Below are positions 35,308 to 64,000 of a stretch of 64,000 bases of DNA, in pieces. The notes below the pieces were generated by a model. That model was not told the origin of the DNA. It did not search any database and saw only the letters and a program-made list of their open reading frames with translations. The translations under genes and the position numbers were made by a program. Source of the stretch: Laburnicola sp. R22_1. Taxonomy: Eukaryota; Ascomycota; Dothideomycetes; Pleosporales; Didymosphaeriaceae. Location of the stretch: contig JACONQ010000004.1 of assembly GCA_014281115.1 (NCBI GenBank), forward strand, positions 3,224,001 to 3,288,000. Reading direction: 5' to 3'. The number at the start of each line of letters is the position of its first letter. Within the stretch, counting starts at the first letter, position 1.

Positions 35308-38300
35308 TCACAGCGGTCTCAGAAAAAAGTTCATATACTTCTGCAGCTGTTCCAAGCACACAGCCGCGGCCACATACTTCCAGCTCTTCAACTTGACAGG
35401 TTTGTCCCACCCCTCCGTCTCCAGCGCAACCTTAAAGCACGCAAGCGCCCTAGGTAGCGCCTCAGACTCTTCGTCATGCACTCCATGGCCAGTCCTGATG
35501 GTTGTCACGATGGACGTAACCATGCGGTCATAGCACTCGCGGAGCTCCTTGTTAGCTTCGCGGACGTATTGAGTTGAAGCGCGCTCCTTTTTGCCCAACA
35601 TGTTGCCGGAGATCACTTCAAGCTCGGTGAGAGGCTTCCCATGATGCGGACGCATTGTCTGCATGGTTTGGAACACGCCCTCCTCGTAGGAATTGCGCAA
35701 CTGTTCGGCGAAAGTACGGTGGTGCTCCCATTCGATACACAGTGTCTCGCGATCAATGTACCGCTCAAGCTTCTGCATGAGATTTTCGTCGCCCAATGCT
35801 TGCTGATAATCCTGGAAATCGCGCTTCATGCGAGCGAAGAACTGCTCGTGGTCGATCTTACGGTACAACTCGCCTAAGACTTTCTCGCTCCTGTAATAGC
35901 GAATAGCGGATTTCCCCGGGTCGAGCACACTGATGCGGTCAGGTTCCTCTGCATCTTCAGGATCATCTTCTGTTACGTCAGGAGCGCCGGCCGCGTTAAT
36001 GACTAGGTGGGGCGCATTCGCCATGTAGTCTGGTCGAATTTCGTCTCGTCCTTTTGGAATGGCCGCTAAATCCACGGGATTTCCAGATTTTCCATAGTCG
36101 ACAGCATCCGATGCGATTTTCGCTAGGACAACGCACTCATCATGCTTGGTCCCCTCCGGATGGAGGTCTGCTCGAATCTTGTGTTTGTTGGAAACCATGC
36201 CTAGAACATCGGAGGTCATGTATTCGACAAAGAAATCCGTAATGTCTTTCGTCTGTACAGGTCGGCCGAGGATTTTCGCAGGAGTGGGAGGGTAATCGGC
36301 CGGACGGGCTGTGCGTGGCGGAATCAAACGCTCATCATACAATACATGAAAGGTGTCGCCGTCGAGATCGCCGCCACTGAGTTGGCTAGGGAGGTCTCGT
36401 TGCCCATGTTGACTGAACACGATGCAGTTGTACAAGTCCTGTAGTGGCGAGTTGTCGGACACTTTCACAGCCTTGACCACCTGAATATCGCCAGGATGCA
36501 GAGCAGGCGCTCTGGTGACAACGACGCGGTCCCTAACGAGTGTCTCACGCTTTGTTTCACCAAGCTCGTCGCGAAATGCTGTTGTGATGTATACCTCGCC
36601 TTCATTTAATTCGCCGGTCTCGTCCATGATGCCATAGAGCACAAAGCCGTCACGAACGGGTATCCGAGCGCGATACTTGAGGTCCCTTAGAGCCGACATG
36701 GCAGCGACTTCAACAACGTCGGTCAGAAACCTGTCGATTTGAAAGTAAATGCCAATCTCATGCATGAGCTTGATCAGGAGTGGAATCTTAGCAGCAACGC
36801 CAGTATAACAGTATTCTTGGGTTACAGTTAGCGCATACGAGAAATGGTAATGTGCAAACCTTGACTTACCTAAGAAGCTTGCCGTGTTGAGAGGATGCTT
36901 CAAATTCAAGTCGAGTTCCCTCATGGCATCGTCCTGTACTGCTATAATATCTTGACGCGCCACACCTAGATCTTCCAGTATCTTGATAAATTGGTGATTG
37001 AGGTAGAAGTCCAACGGCCTGTATGATGCACCACAGATCTCAAGATCCCTGTTGGTTGAGATGATCAGTGACAATGGGTAGAGGAATTTTGGGTTGATAG
37101 CCTTACCTCCACTCTTCTTTCGCAGGATACTTTGTCATGCTTTTTCGAATATGCAACTGCTTTCCAGGCAACGACGTATCTAAGCTGACAACGCCCTTTG
37201 AGCCGCCGTACCTGATTTGCAGAACAGTTGGTTCAAGGCGACTTGGTCCAATTGGAAGACGTTTCCAGATTGTCTTCATGAGTTCCAAGGCTACGAGAGG
37301 CGAAGATATGATGTCAGTGTATCTCTGAGATACTTCGGATATATACACTTACAGATAGTGCCACAGCCGTCTGAGAAGCATCTTCCGTTCCTCTCGACGT
37401 CGCTTTTGGTCGTGATGACGACCGCATCATTTGGAATATCAACCTAAAAGTTGATTGTCAGAAAGTCTCAGAGACTAGTCGAGCACTACTCACGGCAAAG
37501 ATAGTATCCGTGAAAGCTTGTCCAATACGTGCAGCACATTTAGCGCTGCACTGGATATGGCTGAAGTCTCCCAGGTCCCTGATGATATCTTCGGCGGTAA
37601 CAAGTTTTTCAAACCACTTGAAAGGCGCCATAAACCACGCTGAGTGACAGCGAAGAGAAGAATTGGAAAAGCCCAGGAAGCTAAACTTCCTGTCGGCCAA
37701 TTCCAATCCCTCGTTCAATACCCTGCGAAAACGAAGATACACTGCACATTGATCCGCACGAGGGTCGTGTGAAACTGGAAGACCATCCTCGTCGGTGAAA
37801 TAGACTCGTATGAAGTGATCGTTGTATTTAGAATACTTGCGAAGTATTCTATTAGGCATGGCTTCATCCGGACCTCTTAGCATCAATCCGATGGGCTTGA
37901 CTATGACCTTGTACGTCTGGACCAGATGTTGGTGCTGATTCTGATTGCGAAAGGCCTTAGCGGTAGCTTCCTGTGCCTGTGAAGTAACAGTTAACTCTAG
38001 CGGACGTGCATTGCAAAAATCCTAGACATTCCTCCTGAGACGACTAGACGCATATCTTACGTACCTGGATTTCTTCGATGTTCTTCTTAAGCATCTTGAT
38101 CATGGTTTCCAAGCTTGCCTCGTGAGCGTCAATATCAGGGCTTAACCTGGAGGGCACCTGGTGTCCAAGACTACGAAGAGCGGAAGCTGTGGTCGCACTG
38201 CCATGCTTGGAGTATAGTACCAACACGTTCTCTAAAAGAGCTGACATTGTCGCCGGCGCCACAATCCCTTCAAAGATCAGTGCAAGAACCTGGAACTTCA

Positions 38301-39383
38301 CCTACACGTCGGGTCATATATCATTAGTAAGATAATTGAGGCTACAAGGGTACGTACCTCAAAGGTGAGAGCCTTTGCTTTCCGAAGTGCTTGACAAAGT
38401 TGCGCGTATTCGGTTTCGATATCGTCCGTACGCCTTGCCGGAACCGTGGTCTTCCACATCTGGGATTTAGAAATTGCATGGGATTGTTTTATGTGCTTCC
38501 AAGCTATCTTGGCAGAATCAATGTCCGGCATCGTGACACGATATACCAGACAAAGCGCTGCGTTCATGGAGAGCGATTGAAGAATATTACACTGCCGTAC
38601 CAAGCCCCGCGGGATTCGCTTGCTGATTGCACTCAGGATGAGATTATCCAAGGTTGGTAGACTGTATGTTTCGTTTGAAGGTTCCTTTCCAGAATAGTGA
38701 CGTAGATCCTCCGTGTTGATGAGCTTGTATATCTTCGGTGGTGATCTCAATGTCAAGTTCAATGCACTCCTCGTCCCCTCTGAATGGGTTAAGATTGCAT
38801 GCTCGATGTTCGTGTAGCGTATATCAATCCTACAATGCCAGGCGTACAGAGCGTGGACATTCGTTGCCAGGTAAATCACGAGACTCGATTTACCGAATAT
38901 GACCGTTCCTTGACGTAAGTCTTTGAACTTGGAGTCAAAGACGAGCTTTTCAAGTCGGTCATACTCCCAAATCCCTGTCTGGAAGGAAAGGATCGGGACA
39001 TGAGCAGTAAGAGCGTTGGCTTCCTTTTTCATGCTGTTGGGAACATTTGCACGCATCTTCGCTTCCTTCTCTTTCAGTACTTGCACCTTGAGTTTATCGG
39101 GCTGGCCTCGCCTCGTGCTCTGTTTGAACCGAAGCTGTCTCTGTCGGAAGGGTATTGGATGAAGCGGAATTGGTCCGCCATGCTTCTGTAGGAACCGCAT
39201 GCCATTATCGACATCGCATAGGGTAATGATTGCCCACTCCTTCCGAGGCAGTTTGAGAATGTCGAAGGCTAAAATATGGAATTGTTGCAGAAAGCCTTGG
39301 AGGAAGAATCGCAGCTCCGCGCGATTCGTGGAAGGTTCCACACGATCCACAAAAAGGTCCTGGAGTAAGTTGATGGTTAACAT
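35308..39383 (-). CDS. RNA-dependent RNA polymerase of the RNA-silencing pathway
   Basis: Eukaryotic RDR/QDE-1-family polymerases make double-stranded RNA for Dicer. Minus-strand exons are 38358-39383, 38065-38301, 37494-37976, 37353-37443, 37107-37290, 36870-37048 and 35308-36815, giving 1235 aa from the ATG at 39383. An N-terminal RRM-like region begins DLFVDRVEPSTNRAELRFFL. The catalytic core has SQHGQRDLPSQLSGGDLDGD (about residue 880), whose DLDGD aspartates bind metal, then VEYMTSDVLGMVSNKHK. The start used here lies inside a transposon end: the original ATG is probably at 41555-41557, separated from the second exon by an intron that now contains the element. QDE-1, SAD-1 or RRP-3 subclass not decided. 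Confidence 0.9.
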
Positions 39384-41515
39384 GTTGGTTCAGCACTTGG
39401 CGCGGTTCGGCAAATGGCGCACCCCAACCAAATCACGCAGTTTACAACACCTCGTTACTGAGCCATCCACAATAGCTAGAATATTCTAATAATTCATTCA
39501 ATTACTATATAAATTGCTGCGAAAAAGATGTACTACTGGAATTTCGCTGGAAGTTTGATGTTGCGGCCACGGCGCGTTGTTGTTGTGGGTGCTGGATCAC
39601 GCCCCATTTCATCACCCCTATCCCCCTACCCTCAGCAACCACCACACGTTGCTTTTTTTTCTGTTTTGGCGCTGCGGCAGGCTTTGAGGCCTTCCTCTTT
39701 CCCTTTTTGGAAGTTTGTATAGCCTTTTCGGAGTTTTCTTTCTCCTGAATCCTCCGTTGTTGCTCAGCCTGTTTCTCCGCCGCGACCCTCTCCTTTTCCT
39801 CCCTTTTCTTAACCCTCAACCTTTCTCTCTCTTTCTTCTCCTGCAGGTTACGTAGCTTAGCTGAGGTTATTTCTGCCTTCTTACGCGCTTTTTCGAGTTC
39901 TACTTTCTCTTTCTCCTTATCTACAACGCTCTCGCGTACTCTAGCCTCCCTCAGCTTCCTCGGGGACCAGAAAACTGCACCACCGTGGTACTCCCTGCGT
40001 TGTTGCAGGTCTAGAGGCTTGCTCTTCTTCTGCTGCTTCTTCTTGACTTGTAGGGCCTTTGTCAGGCCTTGTACCTCAGCGTGGAGGATGTCATTTTGAA
40101 CAGAGATGTGGTGGAGAGAACGCTTCAGCTTCTGCACCTCCCTACTGCCCTCCTCCCTCACAGTATTACGCACGAGGGTCTCGATTTTGAGCCAATCCTT
40201 GCCGCTGAGTACAGAGGTACTGCTCTCTCTCGAATCCTGCTCCACTGGAGTTGATGGCCTGTATTTCTGAAGGATAACCTCAGCGTTACGGGGCCATATA
40301 CCAGTGGCCTCAAAGGACTTTAGAATCGTTTTCTTCTTGAAGGAGATGGTCCAGGCTTCCCAGAAGAGAGGGAAGAAGTCTCCTTTCTTTACTGAGAGTA
40401 GCCCCTGGGCCTCGTGGAGATAGGTAGTGAGGGCTTTTGAGTAGGCTGATGAGAGAGGCTTAAAGAGTACTACATCAAGGGGCTGCAGCGTGTGGGTACT
40501 GTGAGGGGGAATATCATAAGGAGAATCCGATTGTGGTCACAGTAGTCGATAAACTCTCTCGTTACGTGGGACCCATGGCCATCCACGATCAGTAGTCGGT
40601 AGGATCGACGAGCTTTCGCTTTTGTGTACCGATCGAAGACCTGCTCGAGCCACGCAAGGCCTATATCGTTGTTGGTCCATCCATTAGGAGATGTAGTGAC
40701 GAATACCTCATGCTTCCCAGCCTTAATATCCTCTACCCAGGCCGATTGGAGAGCGTTATTGGCAGCTGCAAATAGTAGCCCTGGTGGCAACGCAGTTCCA
40801 TCAGCGCAGACGCAAGCTAGGATGGTCATCCACTCTCTGTTGCCATCTTGGAGGGCTGATTTCACTTCCCCGCGGTCCCACATAGCTTTGCTGAAGATCC
40901 TTTTGCTTCTTCCAATCACTCCTGTAAGGAAGCCCTTCTCATCCATATTGTACGTGTGACGAGGCTCTATATTGTACTCCTCCATTTTCTCTAGCAGAAG
41001 TTGAAAGAATTGCTCGTATTTAGCCCCTGAATCAGCTTGGTGGCGCGCGCGATCCATTCCAGTAACCCAATGGGGGTGATTTCGACGTTGTAACGGTTGA
41101 TGAATCGGGTAACCCAGCTTTTTCCTACTGGTTGTTCGCTGTTGGTTTTTGCAATTGATGAAGCAAAATTCTGCAGCATCTCCCTTGTAGGTGGTAGACG
41201 ACGGCCTGTAAGCTTTTCTATATAGCTTACAAGCTCCAGTTCTTGTTGAGGGGTAAGTTTTCGCCGTTGGAGTTGTTGCTCTTTCATCGGCACGTTTTTG
41301 CCATGGTGTATCCTCCTCAGCGTAGTGTCTGGTACACCATATTTTTTCGCTATTTTTCGATACGAGAATTCTTCTCCTGGTCCGCGCGATTCGATTTCTT
41401 CAATTGCCTTGTCAATTGGATCCATATTGGCTGAGTTATGGGTGGGTGAAGGATTGGGTGGAAAATGCGGGGGTGCGCCATTTGCCGAACCGCGCCAAGT
41501 GCTGAACCAACATGT
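39380..41515 (-). mobile_element. Fot1/pogo-like DNA transposon with perfect TIRs
   Basis: This is a 2136-bp element flanked by TA on both sides, the target duplication of the Tc1/mariner/pogo superfamily. Its two terminal inverted repeats are identical over 46 bp; each begins ACATGTTGGTTCAGCACTTG and ends GCGCACCCC. It holds one transposase gene on the minus strand with two frameshifts. Perfect TIRs, no in-frame stop codons other than those caused by the shifts, and normal base composition suggest a young copy that has not been visibly affected by RIP. Confidence 0.95.
39505..41425 (-). pseudogene. Pogo/Fot1-type transposase, two frameshifts
   Basis: Starting at ATG 41425 (MDPIDKAIEEIESRG), the first frame has a Psq-type HTH (FSYRKIAKKYGVPDTTLRRI) and a CENP-B-type DNA-binding segment (VGKSWVTRFINRYNV). 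The frame shifts at a run of five G/C at 41072-41076. The second frame contains the DDE core (TYNMDEKGFLTGV and LIVDGHGSHVTREF). It shifts again at a five-base run at 40505-40509 into a third frame (THTLQPLDVVLFKPL, third Asp). That frame ends in a long Lys/Glu-rich coiled-coil tail at the stop 39505. In both runs one more C on the coding strand would restore the frame, so homopolymer sequencing error must be considered. Confidence 0.85.
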
Positions 41516-41557
41516 TAGCGATCCGACAAGAATCGTATATTGATATGAACTCACCAT

Positions 41558-41913
41558 TTTGCCAACTTGTAGCTACCAAGAACCCACGCTCCCATATAGT
41601 TTACATTAAATTGTGCGGGAGTCAAGAGCGGGGAAAAGTCTGCTGATTACACGGCATTGGATCTTTCACGTGGCTTCCCAAATTGGAAGCGGGGACTTCA
41701 CCTTCACCGATAGGTAATAGAACGAAAACAAGAGTTATTAGTATGCAGTATATTATCTTTGCAAAGAGAAGTCGGAACCAGTCATGTGACTCATTCTTGG
41801 CCCCAGCTAATCGCTAGCAAGAGTGATACTGGCGTGGGTGCTGCGAGAGACAGACCTGTACGACTGAGCTTTCCAAGCGTACCTCGTCCATCGGGGACCA
41901 TCATACGCCCTAT
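41558..41913. promoter_or_regulatory. Native RdRP promoter and CLPP 3' flank
   Basis: 356 bp upstream of the original RdRP ATG and downstream of the CLPP stop; both genes are on the minus strand. The element now separates this promoter from the RdRP body by 2.1 kb. No other feature is seen. Confidence 0.45.
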
Positions 41914-61606: not shown

Positions 61607-62299
61607 GTTGGAGTCACGCGAATGGTATGCGCGAAGTCGTTGATTGAACGGCGCCAAGCTGTAGTTTGGCCCGCTTTCAGATCAACCTTTGGTGGAAGGG
61701 GAAGAAAAGGGAAGACTAATCGTGGAGCCTTCCTCCTCGAATGGTACTGCAAGAGCGGGGCCTTCGCTTTAGTAGCTGGGGCCACGCAGCACCAGTGAGC
61801 GAGGTCTGCTGACCTCGACGTTGACGTGTACCGAAGCGCCGAGGCAGAAGAGACGCTCAGAAGAAACGCAAAGCACTAAACTGTTGATGATAGACACAAT
61901 AGAGCATCTATCTGGATGCTACACACGGATATCACCGTCTGGAAAGTTATACCTTGATGATTCAATCTGCTGAGGTCATGGTTGCAAAGCGGGATGGATG
62001 ACGCTAGTGAATAGCCTAGGCTGCTTCAGGCGACAAAGACAGCGCTGCAATGAGGTAACACAACGACGAATTTCATTTAGCGGAACTGACAAAGCTCTCA
62101 GCATGTACATGTTAATTTAGAGTATGCCTCCATTCTCCGAGAGCCTCCATTTGAAACTCCAGTTCACCACCTCATCATTACTCCTACATGCCCTCTTGTT
62201 ACCCCACCCAAGCGCCTCTCCCGTCTTATCTACAGGCTCTAAGTTGCTATCCGCAGCACACATTAGAGTTTGTCTTAAGTATTTGTTAGATCTAGGTTG
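61607..62299. other. fluG promoter and transition to the AT-rich block
   Basis: No gene is recognised. Base composition shifts sharply toward A/T after about 62270. Confidence 0.5.
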
Positions 62300-62559
62300 A
62301 GAAGTTAATAATTGTATGTATTTCGCTATCTAATGCGGGGTAGCAGTACCTATATACATATGGGTACCTATACGCTAGTCCTAATAAGGAAGGATATATA
62401 AAAGGGGGATCTAGTTTCTAACAGCCCCCTATCGCCCTATTACATATTCTTTGCTATATCCGCTATTTTTATACACCCCTATAGATCTTTAAAAGTTATA
62501 GGTAGTAGCAGCTTTATAAATATATTTATAATATTATTAGGCTAGTAAATAGGTTTAGA

Positions 62560-62725
62560 GTACCTAGCTTAGGTATAGGGTTAGGTTGGAGTTATATAGA
62601 CCCTAAGTATAGGTTAGGTTAGAGTTATATAGATCCTAGGTATAGGTTAGGTTAGGTTGCATAGATTCTAAGTATAGATTAGATTAGGTTATATAGACTT
62701 CTAGGTATAGGTTAGGTTAGAGTAC
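62560..62725 (+). repeat. Tandem repeat of about 40 bp
   Basis: At least four diverged copies of a unit containing AGGTATAGGTTAGGTTAGAG followed by TTATATAGA lie head to tail (starting near 62571, 62606, 62638 and 62700). Differences are mostly C/T or G/A, as expected after RIP. Confidence 0.8.
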
Positions 62726-63349
62726 CTATTAGAATTACGTAACTTATATTATATAAAATTAATAGTAATAAAATTAGTAACTTTAGTTACTCTCTAAATG
62801 TGTATAAGAAAAGAAATCTAAATAAAAATAAAAATAATACTATTTTACTATTAATATATATAACATATTCTATTAGTAGCCCGGACAGATTAGTCTGCCG
62901 GATAGTTTTTCTTAGCAACTTCGAGATCCCTTATAACTTATAATAATCTACTATAACTTATAATATACTAAGTTACTATTTAATTTACTTTTTACGTTGT
63001 GTAGCCTCTTTGCGCGGCTACTATAGCCGCGTAAAGCTAAGGAGTCTTTCTTAGCAGTACAAACTTACAATAAGACTCTTTATAATATATAATATATTAT
63101 CTACTATACTATACGTAGGTAATATATAGTATACTTATTATAATTTATAGTAAAGCATACTATATCTTAGGTAGTACTTTATCTAATTTTTAGTTACTAA
63201 GTGCGTACTATTATAAGATAAAGTTAACCTATTATTTTTGGCCTTATAGTAACCTATAATAAAATCACTCTAATTTACTATTAACACTATCTAAAAATAA
63301 GCTGCTAAGAGTAATATTTAACTCCTCCTCTATCTCTTTATCTATCTAA

Positions 63350-64000
63350 CAGGTTCTTATGTTGTGTCTAGGCTCTCTATACCTCTCACAGCGGCGTTGT
63401 ATTAAGAGACCTGTCTCTTCCTCACCACTACCTCGCGCCCTTTTCGATAACTTCACCCTAATAGAAGGGCTTTCTACTCCTAAATCTGCTCCCTAAGCAA
63501 AGCCTAGCGTCCCACCTTTCTAAATGCGCTTTCTTTACGCGTTTTTCGCTTTGTTAGAACCTTAATTTGCTTCTTAAGTTCCTTAATATAGGTCTCTTAA
63601 AGTACACTATAGTAGAGTATAAGTTTAGCACCTTTTATAAGCTGTGAGTAGCTTAATTTAGCATTAGGTAGAGACCGAATAAAAGAGTCGCGTACGAGCT
63701 TTAACTAGGATCCAAACTTAAGGGTATTACTTAGGGTCCTGGCTTGCCATAGTGTATCTAGTGGGGTACCCTAAGGTGGAGTGTAAATACGCACATTAAG
63801 GCGATTTACTACTATTAACGCATCTAAAGAAATAAGCCTAGAGGCCTTAAAGGCTTTCTTACAGTTTTCTAGTATAAATATATTAAAAAACGCATTGTAA
63901 AAGGCTAGTAGAAAGCCCTCTTTATTAATATAAAAGACGTATTAGCGCGCTAAGTCCTGCACGCGCTAGGAGTACTTTAGCTTTAGTAGCGCGAAATAGA
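63350..64000 (-). pseudogene. RIP-degraded Fot/pogo-type transposase, C-terminal part, runs off the edge
   Basis: Reading the minus strand with stops ignored, fragments appear in the order typical of the C-terminal third of fungal pogo/Tan1-like transposases: YINKEGFLLAFYNAFFN (near 63920), NCKKAFKASRLISLDA, VVNRLNVRIYTPP, SQLIKGAKLILYYSVL, ELKKQIKVLTKRKTRK, KGGTLGF and finally QRRCERYREPRHNIRTC (near 63370). The last is a damaged version of the CxxCGxxGHNxRTC zinc knuckle that ends these proteins. It is different from the element at 39380-41515, which ends in a coiled coil without a knuckle. The N-terminal and DDE part would lie beyond position 64000. Confidence 0.7.

Follow-up and report, generated by a model that had tools for sequence, protein, structure and literature searches.

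Tigger is a member of the pogo family. In Fusarium oxysporum, a Fot1 copy reportedly sits in a nitrate reductase intron; this case resembles the locus described here in that a Fot1-family element within a fungal intron is said to alter transcripts. The Fot1/pogo elements of filamentous ascomycetes, which belong to the Tc1-mariner superfamily, share with the element described here a TA target duplication, TIRs of 46 bp, a length of approximately 2.1 kb, and the combination of HTH_Tnp_Tc5 and DDE_1 domains. In human cells, intronic Tigger causes gene trapping by means of cryptic splice sites and poly(A) sites of the element (PMC10901741); it is comparable as a DNA transposon lying in an intron on the strand of the gene, with splice signals able to capture the upstream exon, and differs in that trapping was seen by RNA-seq after SAFB depletion, whereas the acceptor at the present locus is predicted and lies in the TIR itself. 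In Aspergillus nidulans, growth at pH 8.0 was the selection that yielded pacX18, an allele with a Fot1-like insertion listed at T667 of pacX (PMC4832277); in both cases an endogenous Fot1-like element lies within a host gene, at T667 of pacX in one and in the first intron of an RdRP gene in the other. Introners (PMC9860276) also place a mobile element at an intron position but make new introns, whereas the intron considered here is older than the insertion, has a native donor, and harbours a full-length transposon containing one GTRNGT. A literature search by titles and abstract openings, with most subscription journals outside its coverage, addressed (i) transposons in fungal RdRP or RNAi genes, (ii) Fot1 in introns, and (iii) start or splice signals borne by TIRs, and returned none with this arrangement.

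The window, i.e., the whole stretch of 64,000 nucleotides from Laburnicola sp. R22_1 that was analysed, contains an element of this kind inside an RdRP gene. The boundaries given for it in the earlier note, together with the identical TIRs, the TA, and the separation of the native ATG from the body of the RdRP gene, are borne out base for base. Its features, read directly as positions and frames, are as follows:

39380..41515, minus strand: pogo/Fot1-type DNA transposon of 2,136 bp, recognised by TIRs, TA, PF03184 and PF03221 matches, and TIR matches in the genome
39378..39379, no strand: TA target duplication, RdRP side
41516..41517, no strand: TA target duplication, promoter side
39380..39425, plus strand: 46-bp TIR, RdRP side, holding the outward ATG
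41470..41515, minus strand: 46-bp TIR, promoter side, providing TTCAG (41506-41502)
39505..41425, minus strand: transposase coding region, with its ATG at 41425

The two TIRs match at 46 of 46 bases, TA flanks each end, and the pair lies far above chance, two matches having occurred in none of 100 shuffles. The transposase is encoded on the minus strand, pointing toward the RdRP gene and running in the same direction, and both PF03184 (DDE_1) and PF03221 (HTH_Tnp_Tc5) score above the Pfam cut-off in the window ORFs and in copy L039. With a DDE_1 domain, a DNA-binding domain of the Tc5/CENP-B type, TIRs, and TA, the element is a pogo/Fot1 DNA transposon. The transposase of copy L039 has relatives in 1,119 proteins (7,993 candidates scored); among the 120 matches listed out of these 1,119, 75 measure 616-631 aa, and two are named 'Pogo transposable element', a name that Pyrenophora bears at 55-57%.

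The TIR is matched 26 times in forward and 26 times in reverse orientation across the genome (63.9 Mb, 26 contigs), and 26 copies could be paired from these matches, of which 24 are flanked by TA at each end. All 26 display ACATGTTGGTTCAG at both ends, save that L026 and L033 each carry a single substitution at their 3' end. In an alignment comprising 25 of the 26 copies, the window copy differs from six others by 0, 1, 1, 1, 3, and 4 substitutions, which makes the insertion very recent. An intact RdRP body is consequently uninformative on expression or use, and the open RdRP frame was discarded as a sign of function after the insertion; the suggestion that the transposon 'kept it expressible' lacks support on the same ground, the insertion being too recent for an open frame to show use.

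As assembled, the transposase frame is broken at two C runs, near 41076 and 40509, each of which lacks one base that some other copies have. With the exception of L040, the copies differ by single-base indels only, and nearly all of these fall in runs. Among the 18 copies with another copy no more than 4 substitutions away, both C runs are short in 16 (L029 is full at both and L030 at one); among the seven more diverged copies, both are short in none (L043 is short at one). Since the short runs occur mostly in near-identical copies, uncorrected assembly error in near-identical repeats is the likely cause of the shortening and of the broken transposase frames.

The host gene comprises the following parts:

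35308..39359, minus strand: RdRP body in seven exons (39359-38358, 38301-38065, 37976-37494, 37443-37353, 37290-37107, 37048-36870, and 36815-35308)
41555..41557, minus strand: native RdRP ATG, context CAAAATGG
39360..41554, minus strand: enlarged first intron of 2,195 nt, made up of the native intron (57 nt), the element, and one TA
41558..41913, minus strand: 356-bp gap to an upstream ClpP-like ORF (end 41914), in which the native promoter and 5' leader are expected

The body is complete, with 1,227 residues from D to the stop and six GT-AG introns of 50-88 nt, and matches PF05183 (E 8e-105) and PF25358. Its exon 36815-35308 encodes GGDLDGD, which we take to be the catalytic motif. The PF05183 domain with the DLDGD motif identifies the gene as a cellular RdRP, for which a role in silencing is predicted; it is not of the QDE-1 type, the last-exon ORF being closer to plant-type RDR2 chains (1e-43) than to QDE-1 (2e-11). 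Among 7,992 scored candidates, 18 homologues were found. Of the named ones, Byssothecium circinans (58%) is nearest and Periconia macrospinosa follows (55%); both are Pleosporales, Massarineae, and a relation to Pleosporales is as far as the placement goes. An ORF neighbouring the gene matched two unnamed proteins, at 40-42%.

The homologues also fix the native start. All 11 that have the N-terminus begin MD[IV][FYH][IV], a count that excludes the seven of 18 starting elsewhere (fragments or other gene calls); the native protein thus reads M|DLFV, which requires the ATG (41557-41555) to be spliced to the GAC at 39359. The intron of the empty site that fits this start was proposed in the earlier note and gains support here: it lies directly behind the ATG and comprises 57 nt, with GTGAGT, CTAAC 17 nt from its end, and CTCCAG. 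The uninterrupted empty-site reading MVSSYQYTILVGSL, offered there as an alternative, was rejected as the native start on account of the same 11 MD starts. For comparison, the branch word stands 12-23 nt from the end in the six other introns of the gene, and nearby, five adjacent Cpn60/TCP1 exon matches are spaced 28-64 nt apart, three other pairs abutting or overlapping.

The last exon of the window gene finds matches at three more RdRP loci, namely C2, which is open and RDR2-like, C22, which is open and QDE-1-like, and C20, which contains five stops. The assembly contains one RdRP locus of the window type. A search of it with exon 1 of this gene gave no second match, and hence no empty allele was found. 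At C20, L053 (G000:C20:3978500-3985000) is a decayed RdRP fragment that runs in one open frame into an apparent UPF1-type helicase tail, recognised by eye.

The TA targeted by the insertion is the TA inside the branch word CTAAC of the first intron, and the two junctions carry the following features:

41502..41554, minus strand: predicted 53-nt intron made by the insertion, from native GTGAGT, re-made CTAAC, and the CAG of the TIR
39381..39383, minus strand: TIR ATG in the RdRP frame (MLTINLLQ|DLFV), context CCAACATGT

On the promoter side, CTA joined to the AC of the element restores CTAAC, with the CAG of the TIR 13 nt on; both the 53-nt size and the 13-nt branch distance fall inside the ranges of the gene's own introns (50-88 nt and 12-23 nt), and 2,195 nt is far outside. 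If this intron were spliced, the product would be MHLARFGKWRTPAFSTQSFTHP, that is, ATG plus 21 codons and then a stop, ahead of the transposase ATG. Left unspliced, the sequence from the native RdRP ATG reads across the TIR in the transposase frame, as an ORF at 40991-41557 on the minus strand (MVSSYQ...NSAN-MDPID). Both promoter-side signals, the TIR acceptor and the frame from the native ATG into the transposase, were absent from the earlier note. The latter frame is the mirror image of that joining the TIR ATG to the RdRP.

On this evidence, a young pogo/Fot1-type copy landed at the TA of CTAAC in the first intron, 57 nt long, of a fungal RdRP gene; the native promoter, leader, and ATG now stand 2.2 kb away from the gene body and lead into a co-directed transposase. 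Given a size in the normal range and re-made signals, the short intron would most likely be either spliced to the TIR or retained, the first placing a stop after the short product and the second leaving the ATG in the transposase frame. With either outcome, the gene would yield less RdRP mRNA or none, and its promoter would serve the transposase. We favour, with confidence somewhat above even, an intronic insertion that lowers RdRP mRNA or removes it altogether and hands the RdRP promoter to the transposase; the consequences for RNA and protein are drawn from the DNA. The TIR on the promoter side resembles a gene trap; the splicing of a host exon to the element is predicted, and the RdRP gene is probably weakened or off. 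In favour of this account, the single GTRNGT donor of the element lies at 40173, leaving no strong internal donor close to the RdRP acceptor. Against this account stands the frequency with which random inserts supply a proximal acceptor: 9.0% give some such acceptor, 3.0% via direct completion of the branch word, with 127,840 window positions taken as insert starts and a rule fixed after the junction was known. In addition, the element contains seven more acceptor-like sites, each with a branch-like word, which make other splice forms possible. Neither AATAAA nor ATTAAA was found in the element on the RdRP strand, which makes premature polyadenylation an assumption. Splice sites were scored by consensus and by the six neighbouring introns rather than by a trained model.

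Three other outcomes compete with the favoured reduction of RdRP mRNA. The whole 2,195-nt intron, element included, may be spliced, yielding the normal MDLFV protein, perhaps less efficiently. The GTGAGT donor and the CTCCAG acceptor survive, and after the duplication TTAAC stands 17 nt before the native acceptor in place of CTAAC, at the original distance; TTAAC is also the only branch-like match of RdRP intron 38064-37977, and a branch-like word kept at the native acceptor could permit splicing across the element. On the other hand, the other RdRP introns do not exceed 88 nt and the spaced Cpn60/TCP1 gaps are 28-64 nt, so that 2,195 nt is exceptional here, as the earlier note held in calling a 2.2-kb intron very long for this genome, and the nearer acceptor at 41502 would compete; we consider this outcome unlikely.

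The working start proposed in the earlier note, the TIR ATG, is less probable again, although the sequence does read as described there: from this ATG the frame continues as ATG TTA ACC ATC AAC TTA CTC CAG and then GAC CTT TTT GTG, without a stop, and with A at -3. A transcript beginning in the last ~130 nt of the element, where TATATA occurs at 39511, would give an RdRP starting MLTINLLQ-DLFV. When the first-exon ORF of 361 residues was modelled (13 sequences, mean pLDDT 72.8), residues 1-5 had a pLDDT below 50 and strand 1 began at residue 9, so the eight added residues seem to form a loose tail ahead of that strand, with which the protein could fold; the model speaks neither for nor against this start. 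Weighing against it is the base rate, since an in-frame, open TIR ATG would result at 10 of the 41 TA sites in the seven RdRP introns, and at two of five in the first intron, and the arrangement is not beyond chance. Moreover, the nearest element-internal ATGs upstream, at 39466 and 39497, come first on longer transcripts, and this start needs transcription to begin in the last part of the element, where a promoter is unsupported; the CTCCAG acceptor would also have to be ignored. As to a conserved trait of related elements, an outward ATG was rejected, being present in just one of the 18 ends of nine such elements and at a different position.

Plain loss of function, in which transcripts from the native promoter terminate or undergo silencing within the element and give no RdRP and no transposase fusion, ranks marginally lower still among these improbable outcomes. 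Loss would be tolerable in view of the open C2 and C22 loci and of rdr knockouts in Cryphonectria parasitica, whose single, double, and triple mutants lacked a phenotype and did not differ significantly in transposon RNA (PMC4182546); the same result cautions against presuming any effect of the insertion on transposon activity. Plain loss would leave the junction splice signals unused, and differs from the favoured reading mainly in the RNA made. Neither AATAAA nor ATTAAA was found in the element on the RdRP strand, which makes premature polyadenylation an assumption.

Should transcripts confirm the favoured reading, the locus would represent a natural transposon insertion in an RNA-silencing gene caught early, with in-frame joins at both ends; it would provide a test of fungal splicing with an element exactly at the branch site, and of RdRP loss against transposon activity. 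Should the RdRP simply be off, it would be an ordinary insertion allele in a genome seemingly rich in such elements.

A broader reading concerns the ends of the whole subfamily, which, with the TA duplication, read TAAC...TTCAG inward, a branch site and an acceptor, and ACATG outward. Such ends might trap the upstream exon and offer a downstream start, here giving the promoter and ATG to the transposase while a lengthened RdRP stays translatable. If so, each intronic insertion could trap the exon before it and offer a new start behind it, and a silencing gene would be exploited and spared at once; we regard this as very improbable. Nine related elements of the same genome, hand-chosen from 88 scored matches, have transposases with 59-67% protein identity and six TIR types, all differing from the ACATGTTGGTTCAG of the window element; within the last 46 nt, 17 of their 18 ends lack an outward ATG, and an acceptor of the kind seen in the window TIR was found in none of the 18. 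The transposase search that supplied them had 3,394 first-look candidates, from which the 88 were scored, and the genome appears loaded with pogo-type elements.

A second lineage of the element (L028, L044, L045, L031, L038, L036, L042, L046, and L029) displays C-to-T changes mainly before A or G, with nine copies tested, as expected of RIP, together with stops. It includes near-identical copies at different sites, as if mutated copies had been moved in trans. L042 and L049 come from different lineages, yet share a 1.5-kb flank with 97% identity and agree in the short flanks at the insertion point. At the far end of the window, positions 62001-64000 form an AT-rich block with a GC content of 0.348.
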